Shown: positions 22 through 38,752 of the stretch, piece after piece
Position numbering within the stretch: position 1 is the stretch's first letter
How the letters are laid out: every line of letters starts with the position of its first letter
Assembly: GCA_025934135.1 (NCBI GenBank)
Contig: JAICYR010000009.1
Span: 1-39,752 of the forward strand
Direction: 5' to 3'
Length of the DNA: 39,752 nucleotides
Source: Acidobacteriaceae bacterium
Lineage (GTDB): Bacteria > Acidobacteriota > Terriglobia > Terriglobales > Acidobacteriaceae
The notes under the pieces: generated by a model
The model's database searches: none
The model's input: only the letters and a program-made list of their open reading frames with translations
Told to the model about the DNA's origin: nothing
Translations under genes and position numbers: made by a program

Positions 22-1233
22 ATGCCACCAACTCAGAGCAAAGATTATTACGGCGTACTTGGCGTAAAGAAGACGGCCACGGCGGAGGAGATTCGCAAGG
101 CCTTTCGCAAACTCGCGCGCAAATATCATCCGGACGTGAATCCGGGGGATAAAAAAGCGGAAGAAAAGTTCAAGGAAATCTCCGAAGCCAACGATATTCT
201 GAGCGACGAGAAGAAGCGCAAGATTTTCGACCAGCTTGGGTTTTACTCCGACCAGATTGATCCGGCGCAGGCCGAGGCGGCGGCGCGCGGCGGCTATGGC
301 CGTGCGGGAGCGGGGCACGGCGGGCAGGGCGTTCCATTTGATTTTGGCGGGTTCGACTTTAACGATTTTGCAAGCCAGCAGGCAGCGGGACGGCAGCAGC
401 AGGAGTCGGGCGGCGGCGGTTGGGGCGGCTTTCGCGACATCTTTTCGGGAATCTTTAATCAGGGCGGGCGTGAGCAGCCTCGCGGCCCGGAGCCGGGCAC
501 CGATCTTGAATACCAGATCAATGTCGATTTCTGGACGGCGATTCGCGGCGGGACGACGCGCCTGCAAATCCAGCGGCAGGAGATGTGCGCCACCTGCAAG
601 GGCAAAGGCGCAACCGGCGGCTCGCAAACGTGTCCCGAGTGCCACGGGTCGGGCCAGGTGACGCAGATGGGCGGGCGGATGAAGTTCAATATCCAGTGCC
701 CGCGCTGCGGTGGTTCGGGCAAGGTGCAGCACGCTTGCACCACGTGCCACGGCGAGGGGACGGTTACGCGTACGGAGCAAATTGAATTCCGGATCAAGCC
801 AGGCACGCGCGACGGACAGCGAATTCGGCTGGGTGGCAAGGGCAACGCCGGAATCAACGGCGGGCCGTCGGGCGACCTTTATCTGGTGGTGAAGGCGGGC
901 ACTCATCCGGTGTTCACGCGGCAGGGTGACGACATTTACGTGACGGTCCCGGCAACGGTGGCGGAGGCGGCGCTGGGGGCCAAGATCGAGGTCCCGACCA
1001 TAGATGGGCGCGCGCAGTTGAAGGTCCCACCGGGCACGCAGAGCGGGCAGAAGCTGAGGATGCGCGAGCGCGGGGTGCCGTCGTCAGCGCATGAGGGCAA
1101 GCGCGGCGACCAGATCGTGACTGTCGAGATCATGGTCCCGAAGGTGCAGGACGAGCGGTCGAAGGAGATTTTGCGGGAGTTTGCGAAGCTGAATCCCGAG
1201 GACCCGCGCGCGGCGATGTGGGCGAAGGTATAG
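22..1233 (+). CDS. dnaJ: Chaperone protein DnaJ (Hsp40)
   Basis: Co-chaperone that delivers unfolded clients to DnaK and stimulates its ATPase; cytoplasmic. The 403-residue protein has the full type I layout. A J-domain covers about residues 8-73 with the HPD motif at 36-38. A long Gly/Phe-rich linker follows (about 88-160). The zinc-binding region has four CxxCxGxG motifs starting at C189, C204, C226 and C239, then the C-terminal substrate-binding domains. Length is close to the usual 370-390 plus an extended linker. The ATG at 22 follows an AGAGAGAC stretch. It is first of three same-strand genes ending in an hspR-like regulator, an arrangement known from heat-shock operons. The upstream region, including any dnaK, is outside the window. 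Confidence is high. Confidence 0.97.
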
Positions 1234-1238
1234 AGGCC

Positions 1239-1712
1239 ATGAGCGAAGAGGAAGTCCAAGACGCAAACGTTCGAGATGACGCGAACGAGGTGCTGAATGC
1301 CAGCGTGACCTACGCCAAACGGATGCTGCGGAAGTATGGGCAGTTCGCGCCGTTTGCATACCGGATGAAGGGCGATGGAGACGTAGCGCTGGAAGTGGTG
1401 GCGCAGCACGATATGCCAGCTGAGCCAGCCATGCTTCTGGATCTGCTCTACGAGCAGCTCAGCGAGCGGGCGAAAAAGGGCCTGATTACGGCGGCGGCGT
1501 TCGCGTCCAATGTGAGCATGGCGAGTTCATCGAAGGAAGGCTACACCGACGCGGTGATGGTGGACATTGAACACAGAGACGGATACTCGGTGCAGGCGTT
1601 TATTCCATACCGGATTACGGGCGGTCAACTGCATGGGTTGTTCCCGCGGATAGTGCGGTTCGGCGCGCTGAAGATCCAAGACGGAAAGCCAAGGCTGTTC
1701 GGGCGGGAGTGA
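1239..1712 (+). CDS. Uncharacterised 157-residue protein between dnaJ and hspR
   Basis: I do not recognise this protein. The ATG at 1239 lies 5 bases after the dnaJ stop and is preferred over an upstream in-frame ATG at 1218 inside dnaJ. The product is soluble-looking, with no signal peptide or membrane segment. It has an acidic N-terminus (MSEEEVQD), a helical middle (about residues 20-90) and a mixed C-terminal half rich in beta-type residues ending FGRE. The tight spacing to dnaJ, and 7 bases to the next gene, shows that it belongs to the dnaJ-hspR operon. A chaperone-linked or stress-linked role is inferred only from that position. Confidence 0.8.
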   Translation: MSEEEVQDANVRDDANEVLNASVTYAKRMLRKYGQFAPFAYRMKGDGDVALEVVAQHDMPAEPAMLLDLLYEQLSERAKKGLITAAAFASNVSMASSSKEGYTDAVMVDIEHRDGYSVQAFIPYRITGGQLHGLFPRIVRFGALKIQDGKPRLFGRE

Positions 1713-1719
1713 AAGCCTA

Positions 1720-2115
1720 ATGCCAACGAAACGCAAATCCAAAGGCGCTTACATGATCTCGGCGGTGGCCGAGATGTATGGGATTCATCCTCAGACGCTG
1801 CGTCTGTATGAGCGCGAGGGGCTGCTGAAGCCGTCGCGAACGGAAGGCAATACGCGCCTCTACACGGAAGAAGATTTAGAGCGGCTGGAGTTTATTTTGA
1901 ACCTGGCCCGCGACCTGGGCGTGAACATTGCGGGCATTGCCATTGTGCTGCAGATGCGCGAGCGGATGGAGGAGATGAACCGCCAGATGCAGAGCTTTGT
2001 GGACTATGTGCGCACGGAGATGCTGTCGCAGATGCAGCAGGGTATGTCGCGCGAGGTGGCGGCGATGGTCCCGCTGAAGCGGCCTATCGTTGAGCCCGCA
2101 AAAGGCCGGCGCTGA
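1720..2115 (+). CDS. hspR: MerR-family heat-shock regulator, HspR-like
   Basis: DNA-binding repressor of the MerR superfamily. In other bacteria HspR represses dnaK/clpB-type operons together with DnaK. The 131-residue protein has an N-terminal winged helix-turn-helix at about residues 12-80, with the typical MerR signature HPQTLRLYEREGLL, a wing around RTEGNTRLYTEEDL, and a following helix. A coiled dimerisation segment (MRERMEEMNRQMQSF) comes next. There is no cysteine-rich effector domain, which agrees with HspR rather than a metal sensor. It closes the dnaJ operon, so autoregulation is likely. I saw no HAIR operator (CTTGAGT-N7-ACTCAAG) in the visible upstream sequence; it would lie before the window start. 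Confidence 0.88.
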   Translation: MPTKRKSKGAYMISAVAEMYGIHPQTLRLYEREGLLKPSRTEGNTRLYTEEDLERLEFILNLARDLGVNIAGIAIVLQMRERMEEMNRQMQSFVDYVRTEMLSQMQQGMSREVAAMVPLKRPIVEPAKGRR

Positions 2116-36279: not shown

Positions 36280-36771
36280 TCAGGGAAACAGCGTTTCCTG
36301 AGCGGCGGGAGTTTCGGGCGGGCGCGGTTGTTTACGCTTGGCGCCGACTAAGGCGATGACCTGAAACTCTGAGATAGCGGTGGGCGGAACCCAGATGCGC
36401 TGGGTGTTGGAGCGAACATCGGGCGGGGTGAGGAAGAGTCCCTCGCCGGATACGAGGCTGAGGTCGTTGCCGGCGAGACCTTCGATGGTGTCGTCGTCGG
36501 CGAGGCGGAGCCGGACGAGTAGGCCCTCGGTACGGGGGCGTCCGGCAAAGGTCTTGCGAATCAGGCGTTCAGGGTTGGCGGGCTCACCGGAATTGAAGTC
36601 GCGAACATAGCATATCCACTTGAGGCCGGCGGCGGGAAGCTGGACGGTTTTGCCGTCGAGGGCCAGAAGTTCTACCACGCCTTGCTGGAAGAAGCCGGCT
36701 GGTGGCAGGTATCCGGCGACCCATTCCTGGGTGAGGCGGCGGGCGATGGCTTTTTTGCGGCTGCGAGCCAT
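36280..36771 (-). CDS. Conserved hypothetical protein
   Basis: 163-residue cytoplasmic-looking protein I cannot place in a family. It begins MARSRKKAIARRL, basic like an RNA- or DNA-binding tail. A beta-rich domain follows (about residues 18-140), with GVVELLALDGKTVQLP, KWICYVRDFNSGEP, RTEGLLVRLRLADDDTIEG and FLTPPDVRSNTQRIWVPPTAI. A Pro-rich C-terminal end contains RKQPRPPETPA. There is no signal peptide. The domain hints at a small beta-barrel, but this is only an impression. It is convergent with thrB and divergent from the nucleotidyltransferase gene. Confidence 0.75.
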   Translation of the reverse strand: MARSRKKAIARRLTQEWVAGYLPPAGFFQQGVVELLALDGKTVQLPAAGLKWICYVRDFNSGEPANPERLIRKTFAGRPRTEGLLVRLRLADDDTIEGLAGNDLSLVSGEGLFLTPPDVRSNTQRIWVPPTAISEFQVIALVGAKRKQPRPPETPAAQETLFP

Positions 36772-36964: not shown

Positions 36965-38752
36965 ATGGCCGACTACGCATATCTGCTTGAAAACAGGCTT
37001 TCCGCAGGCCAGCGCGGGGCATTAGACAAGGTCCGTGAGATCGCCCTTGATCATGGGATGACGGTGTTTCTGGCCGGTGGGGCAGTGCGGGACCTGTCAA
37101 CAGGGTTCCCTGTCCGAGACCTTGATTTTACAGTCCAGGGAAATCCTCTCAAGCTGAAGAAATCATTTGAGAAGGCCGGGTTCGAAGTTTGGGGCGAGTA
37201 TGAGCCCACGCGGACGCTCTTTCTGTGGTTCAAGGGTGCGCGGGTCGAAGTATCGAGCGCGCGGCGTGAGGATTTTCCCAAACCGGGAAAGCCGGTCTAC
37301 CATTGGGCGACGATTCTGGAAGACCTTCGGCGGCGGGATTTTACGGCCAACGCAATGGCCGTCTCCCTGAATGAAGGCTCCTATGGACTGCTGCTTGATC
37401 CGCTGAACGGGATCGCCGACCTGGAGGCGCGCACGCTGCGGCTGGTGAGTCCTTATGGATTTATTGAGGACCCATCGCGGCTGTTGCGGGCTGTTCGCTT
37501 GCAGGCGCGGACCGGCTGGGAACTCGATGAGCGCACGAAGACGCGCTATGAGAACGCAAAGGAAGAGGGCTCGATCGGAGTGATCTCCACGTATCTGAAA
37601 GGGTATGAGCTTGAGGAGATTGCGCACGAGGAAGACGCGCTGAAGGCGCTGAAGGCGCTGGAGTCCGAGGGCTGGATGAAGCAGATTTTTCCCGCTTGGA
37701 CGAGCGCAAAGGCGGACGCGCGCGGGCTTGAGGCCCTGCATGAAGCGCTGCTGGGGCTGCTGATGCAGGGAATCCAGCCGGACCTGGCCGCGGCGCAGAT
37801 GGAACTGCTGACGGCGAAGCTGGCCCCGAAGGAAATTTCGGCGCTGAAGCGGCTGTTTCCGCAGCCGGGATTTGTGAAGCACTGGGAGAAGCTGGACCAC
37901 GCGACGAAGGAGTTCCAGAAGGAGTTGCTGGACAAGAAGAATGCTGCGCCGTCGGCTACGTGGAAATTGCTGACAAGCCACGCTCCCGAGCCGGTGCTGT
38001 GGCTGGCATACACGACGAAGAGCGCTCCGGTGCAGGCGAAGTTCAAGAATTTCCTGACGGTGTGGCCGGAAGCGCGGCAGAAGATTCCGACGCTGCTGAT
38101 GCAGGAGATGCGGATTACGCCGGACCTGCCGGGCTACGACGCGCTGGTGGAGGAGATATTCTTCGCGCTGATGGACAACAAGATTCAGACCGAGGATGAG
38201 ATGCGGGCCTTTCTGGAGCCTCATTCGCCACCTGCTCCGCCGCCTCCTGTCAGCATTCGGCGGACACGCGCAAAGAAGAAAGCTGAGAAACACGAGGAAC
38301 ACGCGGACGAGGCGGACCTCGACGAGGAGCACGAGGAGGACGAATCCGCGATTCCGCTTCCGCCAGCGAAGAAAGCACCCGCTTTGAAACCTGAGAAGGC
38401 GCCTCCGGCGGCGAAGGGCGCCCCGGCTGAGAAAGAGCCTGCTGCTGCGAAGAAGGGTGCGGGTGCAGAGAAGAAGACTGCTTCGGCTACCAAGGCGAAG
38501 CCGGTGGAGAAGCCGTCGAAGGCCGCCAGAATTGGAACGGAGAAGCCTGCCGCGAAACCCGCGAAGCAAGCAAAGGCTTCCAAACCCGCTCCCGCGAAAA
38601 AGGCGGCGAAGAAAGTCCAAAAGGCCACTCCGAAGGTCGCCGCGAAGACGGAGAAGAAACCCGCCGCCAAAGCCGCGAAGAAACCCACTCCGAAGCCGGT
38701 GAAAAAGCCGGCTGCGAAAAAAGCTGCGAAGCCCACCAAAAAGAAGAGATAA
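36965..38752 (+). CDS. tRNA-nucleotidyltransferase/poly(A)-polymerase-type protein with a histone-H1-like tail
   Basis: 595-residue protein. The first 230 or so residues form a class II nucleotidyltransferase head, as in CCA-adding enzymes and poly(A) polymerases: VFLAGGAVRDLSTGFPVRDL, DFTVQG, RRRDFTANAMAV, LLDPLNGIADLE and DPSRLLRAVRLQAR. A helical body follows (about 230-418). From about residue 420 the chain is a disordered tail. It first has an acidic stretch (EHADEADLDEEHEEDES) and then about 150 residues of Lys/Ala/Pro repeats (PAKKA, AAKKG and similar), like bacterial histone-H1-like proteins. Such tails bind nucleic acids non-specifically. The enzyme may add CCA or A residues to RNA; which one is not determined. 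Confidence 0.85.
   Translation: MADYAYLLENRLSAGQRGALDKVREIALDHGMTVFLAGGAVRDLSTGFPVRDLDFTVQGNPLKLKKSFEKAGFEVWGEYEPTRTLFLWFKGARVEVSSARREDFPKPGKPVYHWATILEDLRRRDFTANAMAVSLNEGSYGLLLDPLNGIADLEARTLRLVSPYGFIEDPSRLLRAVRLQARTGWELDERTKTRYENAKEEGSIGVISTYLKGYELEEIAHEEDALKALKALESEGWMKQIFPAWTSAKADARGLEALHEALLGLLMQGIQPDLAAAQMELLTAKLAPKEISALKRLFPQPGFVKHWEKLDHATKEFQKELLDKKNAAPSATWKLLTSHAPEPVLWLAYTTKSAPVQAKFKNFLTVWPEARQKIPTLLMQEMRITPDLPGYDALVEEIFFALMDNKIQTEDEMRAFLEPHSPPAPPPPVSIRRTRAKKKAEKHEEHADEADLDEEHEEDESAIPLPPAKKAPALKPEKAPPAAKGAPAEKEPAAAKKGAGAEKKTASATKAKPVEKPSKAARIGTEKPAAKPAKQAKASKPAPAKKAAKKVQKATPKVAAKTEKKPAAKAAKKPTPKPVKKPAAKKAAKPTKKKR

Follow-up and report, generated by a model that had tools for sequence, protein, structure and literature searches.

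A nucleotidyltransferase-type protein with a basic, predicted disordered tail in an acidobacterial family

Bacterial enzymes acting on RNA 3' ends are usually classed by their motifs as CCA-adding, CC-adding, A-adding or poly(A)-adding enzymes. E. coli encodes the CCA end on its tRNAs and has its own CCA-adding enzyme; the second enzyme of this kind is poly(A) polymerase I (PAP I). Lysine-, alanine- and proline-rich tails resembling histone H1 are known from other bacterial proteins, of which the tails of HupB and of Hc1-like proteins are examples. For the A-adding enzyme of Aquifex aeolicus, section 10 of PMC3925840 describes Asp31, Asp33, Glu74, Asp105, Asp149 and Arg152 as catalytic or nucleotide-selecting residues. 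According to the same section, the homologue from Thermotoga maritima makes the entire CCA, so that specificity cannot be read from relatedness. Bacterial CC-adding enzymes are described as having no flexible loop (PMC7014341, in part), and the C-terminal region of the E. coli poly(A) polymerase contacts proteins of the degradosome (excerpt of PMC12985599). Among the papers listed by searches of open-licence PMC text, none dealt with an acidobacterial homologue that is tailed or catalytically dead, and the string 'acidobacteri' is absent from the main text of a paper on the distribution of poly(A) polymerases (PMC8208693).

The window analysed here is a stretch of 39,752 nucleotides from contig JAICYR010000009.1 of an Acidobacteriaceae bacterium. 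Positions 36965..38752 of its forward strand form a single open frame for a protein of 595 amino acids. Residues 1-414 make up a core of the class II nucleotidyltransferase kind, and residues 415-595 a tail that is predicted to be disordered and has proline-rich, acidic and Lys/Ala/Pro-rich parts. The features are listed in Table 1. The first-pass annotation had described a histone-H1-like Lys/Ala/Pro tail on an enzyme of the tRNA nucleotidyltransferase type, which agrees with the PF01743 core and the tail of 181 residues seen here. The tail described there is real, only that it begins slightly before the stated position 38220, at about 38207.

Table 1. Features of the tailed nucleotidyltransferase gene and its divergent neighbour in the window.
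Feature	Coordinates	Strand	Remarks
DUF6982 (PF22478) neighbour, divergently transcribed	36280..36771	-	association only
Nucleotidyltransferase core	36965..38206	+	residues 1-414; PF01743 head, residues 35-159, Pfam 9.8e-22
Catalytic Asp52 and Asp54	37118..37126	+	correspond to A. aeolicus Asp31/Asp33; alignment and roles in PMC3925840 (in part)
Catalytic Glu95	37247..37249	+	corresponds to A. aeolicus Glu74; alignment and PMC3925840 (in part)
Asp125 of RRD motif	37337..37339	+	corresponds to A. aeolicus Asp105; alignment and PMC3925840 (in part)
Asp169 and Arg172, EDxxR nucleotide-selecting motif	37469..37480	+	correspond to A. aeolicus Asp149/Arg152; PMC3925840 (in part)
Pro-rich linker ending RRTR	38207..38269	+	residues 415-435; in 79/79 complete orthologues of the own family
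Acidic stretch	38294..38344	+	residues 444-460
Lys/Ala/Pro-rich run, ends TKKKR	38369..38749	+	residues 469-595 (~127 residues); predicted disordered, pLDDT ~50

An AlphaFold2 model of the protein, calculated from 50 aligned orthologues, has block-mean pLDDT values of at least 90 for residues 11-420, 75 for residues 421-430 and about 45-60 beyond; the folded part is predicted to stop near residue 420. In a structural comparison two enzymes were tied as best matches of the core, the CCA-adding enzyme of T. maritima (3h38; Z 24.5 over 402 residues, 23% identity, rmsd 16.7 Å) and the A-adding enzyme of A. aeolicus (4wby; Z 24.3 over 362 residues, 25% identity, rmsd 12.6 Å). These scores place the core in the class II fold, and the large rmsd values indicate that the domains are differently arranged or flexible. 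The same two enzymes are closest to the core both by sequence and by fold. All six residues described for A. aeolicus are retained as D52, D54, E95, D125, D169 and R172, and the superfamily motifs GG...RD with DxD, the third carboxylate, RRD and EDxxR are all present. PF01743 is the sole Pfam match of the protein. The best NCBIfam family is the A-adding tRNA nucleotidyltransferase NF041569, which is matched by residues 18-414 only and with 105.6 bits, below its cut-off of 1440 bits; the N-terminal DHH/CBS half which belongs to that family is missing. Histone-type Pfam families gave no match at E 0.1, and PADLOC gave no match for an identity as a defence protein. By its composition and its predicted disorder the tail is of the Lys/Ala/Pro-rich, histone H1-like kind.

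The first-pass annotation had taken the protein for a CCA-adding enzyme with an unusual tail. The core groups by sequence with the A-adding/Thermotoga-type enzymes, which makes it a second paralogue instead, and an identity as the canonical CCA-adding enzyme was rejected, as an apparent gene of the canonical type, for which the annotation had proposed to look, lies elsewhere in the genome. In the window assembly (88% complete) this is the one other PF01743 gene; it is present in two pieces, at an end of contig C101 and an end of contig C195, which probably belong to a single gene. The two frames overlap with one residue difference, and the second half of the split gene matches PF12627. A complete homologue of this partner from a relative (L065) comprises PF12627, HD and tRNA_NucTran2_2 domains and aligns with the CCA-adding enzyme of B. 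stearothermophilus (4.8e-51) ungapped across the flexible loop. The partner of the window genome itself (L001) has the loop pattern, and 15 of 19 rows tested have it in full, the exceptions being a short form (L066), a fragment beginning after the loop (L003) and two proteins of other types (L037 and L077). The latter, at 583..2004 on the reverse strand of its locus, is a differently organised nucleotidyltransferase-like protein and the second match in genome G054. Since bacterial CC-adding enzymes are described without the flexible loop, the partner, judged by its sequence, probably synthesizes the complete CCA. This speaks against a split CC-/A-adding pair, in which the partner would be without the loop.

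The CCA end is also encoded in the tRNA genes. It was found in 30/30 genes examined in the window genome (taken from 30 of 39 matches), and in two other genomes in 16/18 (15 of 46 matches) and 22/22 (15 of 43 matches). As the genome has its own canonical-type enzyme and encoded CCA ends, bulk synthesis of CCA should be possible without the tailed protein.

In a search of the phylum, the nearest relatives from other classes were for the most part encoded by long open frames (~770-940 amino acids). Three of these long relatives were scanned with Pfam and contain DHH and DHHA1 domains before the nucleotidyltransferase core, two of them also CBS domains. NF041569 is matched by two of the three over nearly the full length of the family and by the third in two stretches, in all cases below the cut-off. 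Ten long relatives end 11-23 residues past the core match (45 in L193) and carry no basic tail. A tree built by a quick search, with one support measure, unites the class with the sister family and the own family in a single clade (SH-aLRT 99) and sets it apart from the canonical partners (100). The simplest history suggested by these sequences would be that the N-terminal half was lost and the C-terminal tail gained in this class of Acidobacteriota. Shorter relatives of 330-543 amino acids occur in the phylum as well, so that a short form may also have evolved outside this class.

The tail of the window protein proceeds from a proline-rich linker (residues 415-430 are AFLEPHSPPAPPPPVS) over RRTR-AKKK to the acidic stretch and then to the Lys/Ala/Pro run. 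Residues 473-595 carry a net charge of +33. Lysine accounts for 44 of the 181 tail residues, compared to 4.3% in 11 other long open frames of the window (binomial 4e-21). The lysine and alanine codons are mixed, and Tandem Repeats Finder lists no tandem DNA array inside the tail. Orthologues from other genomes keep the frame, the linker and the tail, so a frame error, which the first-pass annotation had considered, is ruled out.

Orthologues of the own family were extracted from 80 distinct genomes, the window's included, and one of them (L042), truncated by the end of its contig, was dropped. Among the 79 left are the window protein and L036, which was assigned to the family by its tree position; of the 239 genomes of this family that were searched, at most 80 and perhaps a few less were read completely. 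The tail is present in 79/79 of these complete orthologues, with a length of 72-286 amino acids (median 145), which disposes of the earlier reservation that the tail might be absent from all relatives. Its net charge ranges from -12 to +61 (median +26) and is positive in 78/79. It is near zero or negative in three proteins (+4, +4 and -12), which weakens a model of pure tethering by charge. The last residue is K, R or H in 78/79. For the tail, dN/dS values of 0.13-0.45 were obtained in 18 of 20 pairs (two gave no value), a weaker constraint than on the core; these are simple Nei-Gojobori estimates with synonymous saturation in many pairs. A recent repeat expansion was ruled out by the presence of the tail in all 79 orthologues, the missing tandem array and the dN/dS values below 1 in the computable pairs. 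The acidic stretch, which had been noted ahead of the basic run, is present in the window protein; as a family feature it does not hold, because it is confined to part of a single subclade of the own family. The basic tail is therefore the general feature, and the acidic stretch is probably a later addition.

The long form itself is not universal. A long-form match (E 1.1e-121 or better) was found in 244 of 249 genomes of the order and missing in five. Among 61 relatives it was found in 54, namely in 35/37 of the own family, 13/14 of the sister family and 6/10 members of the class outside the order; the seven without such a match are two, one and four genomes of these groups. The proteins from the six class members outside the order extend 11-78 residues beyond the core and are clearly basic there in two cases (L050 and L051). 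In the sister family, ten complete orthologues have tails of 38-202 amino acids, every one with a net positive charge.

All 13 orthologues of the sister family, three of which are incomplete because the contig stops downstream of the motifs in the core, have lost Asp52 (replaced by V, T, H, F, L or S), carry Arg in place of Glu95 and Gly in place of Asp125 of the RRD motif. These are two of the three catalytic carboxylates plus the RRD aspartate; Asp54 is retained in 9/13. The cores of the sister family are nevertheless under purifying selection, with dN/dS values of 0.08-0.26 (eight pairs) against 0.05-0.18 in nine pairs of the own family with the residues in place. In a model of one sister-family protein (L044), the block means of pLDDT for residues 11-420 exceed 90, and the order of helices and strands is nearly unchanged. 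Six residues (G38, R42, D43, R124, R175 and R178) do not vary among 50 sequences, ten of which are predicted dead ones from the sister family, so the nucleotide pocket may persist there without its metal ligands. As the sister family lost the catalytic residues and kept the fold and the basic tail, binding of RNA (or nucleotide) is probably part of the conserved job; judged from these alignments, something beyond catalysis, plausibly this binding, appears to be under selection.

The canonical partners in the sister family retain GG..RD, DxD, RRDF and EDxxR in 12/12, the loop pattern in 11/12 and the third-carboxylate pattern in 9/12; eleven of these partners come from genomes which also encode the tailed protein, and one from G049, which has no long-form match. 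In G039, a genome of the sister family, two of the 18 tRNA genes examined (Met-cat and Lys-ttt) are without encoded CCA, so that CCA has to be added in this genome even though its tailed protein appears to be inactive.

Within the own family the D/D/E triad is kept in 40 of 45 tree rows. In one subclade three proteins (L016, L160 and L161) show G39D, D54E and E95D and a degraded EDxxR motif; L159 shows D54E, E95D and the degraded motif, and L162 shows D52E, D54E and E95N. With these carboxylates swapped or lost, activity may be failing in that subclade too. The tails of these five proteins are long (212-275 amino acids), and the net charge is +5 or less in three of them. E95S is found in the class members L050 and L055. 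Such erosion outside the sister family counts against a clean two-state picture. The state table drawn from the tree requires seven changes with D/E swaps scored as 'intact', and two (L061 and L192) of its 19 'lost' rows are so scored because of gaps.

We also looked for similar tails in other proteins of the genome. With 92 residues of the tail as query, the protein itself and one weak match (E 0.18) were retrieved, so no homologous tail emerged from this search. A scan for a K/A pattern, which may miss composition-biased tails, gave clusters at about five loci (C290, C210, C220, C194 and this gene) besides single matches. The frame on C290 (L088, 1410..2465, reverse strand) is H1-like and has an acidic stretch followed by KKAAKK repeats, in the same order as in the window tail. 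On C220 a ribosomal-protein-L29-like frame (L082, 1180..1557, forward strand) has a K/A-rich C-terminal tail and lies, by inspection, in a ribosomal protein cluster. The frame on C194 (L211, 1084..2142, forward strand) contains an internal MPAKKAAKKPVSKKPKK stretch ahead of an apparent NUDIX-type domain, likewise by inspection. The neighbours of the tailed gene (threonine genes by inspection, DUF6982 and a phospholipase B-like gene) give no functional clue. A DUF6982 homologue lies beside the gene in most loci of the own family with enough upstream DNA and in no loci of the sister family; a functional link between both genes is possible.

How could these observations be explained? In our preferred reading the gene would be a second class II RNA 3'-end nucleotidyltransferase, kin to the A-adding/Thermotoga-type enzymes, which would have lost the N-terminal DHH/CBS half in this class and acquired a long tail that is basic and disordered. 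Its folded part would most likely add A (or CA/CCA) to RNA 3' ends, the basic tail would hold the enzyme non-specifically, by charge, on RNA or RNA-rich assemblies, and the proline-rich linker would serve as spacer. In the sister family catalysis would have been abandoned while fold and basic tail were kept. We give about an even chance to the view that the window protein is active in adding nucleotides to RNA 3' ends, in tRNA end repair or in adenylating other RNAs, and that its tail keeps it on RNA. RNA binding by the tail is inferred from its charge, its predicted disorder and its conservation, with E. coli PAP I as a precedent (PMC9764084, in part). DNA or polyphosphate would be equally conceivable as ligands of the tail, and sequence and prediction do not separate a tether to RNA from one to the nucleoid or from condensation.

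If the protein were a poly(A) polymerase, it would oligoadenylate mRNAs and sRNAs, and the tail would correspond in function to the RNA-binding region at the C-terminus of PAP I from E. coli. The genome resembles E. coli in having encoded CCA ends and an own CCA-adding enzyme, and the PcnB-type protein L037 combines the PAP signature with a basic stretch near its C-terminus. The signature, as defined in the available part of PMC8208693, matches this protein, which served as positive control; it is present in 0/108 long-form rows (duplicates included), and an identity as PcnB was rejected for its absence. Given further that PF12627 was not found in the window protein, that the long relatives closest to it have their matches in the A-adding family and that the sister family is without the catalytic residues, we regard this function as unlikely. 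Alternatively, the addition of CC and of A in tRNA maturation could be split between two enzymes, and this protein be the one that adds A, with the tail as an incidental aid. Such a role would fit NF041569 as best family and the matches of the long relatives to it, nearly full length in two and in two stretches in the third, although all of these, including the 105.6 bits of the window protein, stay below the cut-off. The partner, however, retains the flexible loop which bacterial CC-adding enzymes lack (PMC7014341, in part), CCA is encoded in all 30 tRNA genes examined, and the sister family seems to manage without the activity of the tailed enzyme even where 2/18 tRNA genes lack CCA, all of which leaves such a pair improbable.

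Nearly the same low probability is assigned to a mainly non-catalytic scaffold associated with RNA or the nucleoid, for which catalysis would be a dispensable relic even where the residues remain. It would account for the 13/13 sister-family orthologues that are predicted dead yet constrained, for the partial active-site decay in L016 and L159-L162 and the change of Glu95 to Ser in L050 and L055, for the six residues that are invariant in dead sequences too, and for K/A-pattern clusters that are few in the genome and include an H1-like one. Selection for a scaffold only would not need the triad which 40/45 rows of the own family keep. The tail could also be functionless, a compositional drift or low-complexity expansion in a GC-rich genome, and its sequence and length (72-286 amino acids) do vary widely. 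Its presence in 79/79 orthologues with a conserved proline-rich linker and a basic last residue in 78/79, the lack of a tandem array in the DNA, the dN/dS below 1 in the 18 computable pairs and the restriction of K/A-pattern clusters to about five loci make drift very improbable.

Returning to the enzyme held on RNA by its tail, a more far-reaching version can be formulated, which we consider rather doubtful. The class would have turned an A-adding-type enzyme into RNA-bound regulators by shedding the DHH/CBS half and adding the basic tail, which in a subclade became acidic-plus-basic and possibly condensing; the sister-family protein would be a constrained pseudoenzyme that serves as an RNA chaperone or scaffold and has kept its binding to nucleotide or to the 3' ends of RNA. 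The locus is of interest as a family-wide paralogue with a basic disordered tail like that of nucleoid proteins, and the loss of catalytic residues under selection in the sister family offers a natural case for roles besides catalysis.

Compared to the known systems, the window protein shares with the A-adding enzyme of A. aeolicus (PDB 4wby/1vfg) and the CCA-adding enzyme of T. maritima (3h38) the core fold over residues 1 to ~421 as well as the catalytic and nucleotide-selecting residues. The alignments end by about residue 421, and the disordered tail of ~175 residues has no counterpart in them. With the DHH(+CBS)-type A-adding enzymes of NF041569 it has a related core in common, whereas their N-terminal DHH/DHHA1/CBS half is missing. 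E. coli poly(A) polymerase I (PcnB) belongs to the same superfamily and has a C-terminal RNA-binding domain after the catalytic part (PMC9764084, in part), but the PAP signature is absent from all 108 long-form rows and the window protein has no PF12627 match. The histone H1-like, K/A/P-rich bacterial proteins are alike in amino-acid composition, while in the window protein such a tail is fused to a nucleotidyltransferase core.
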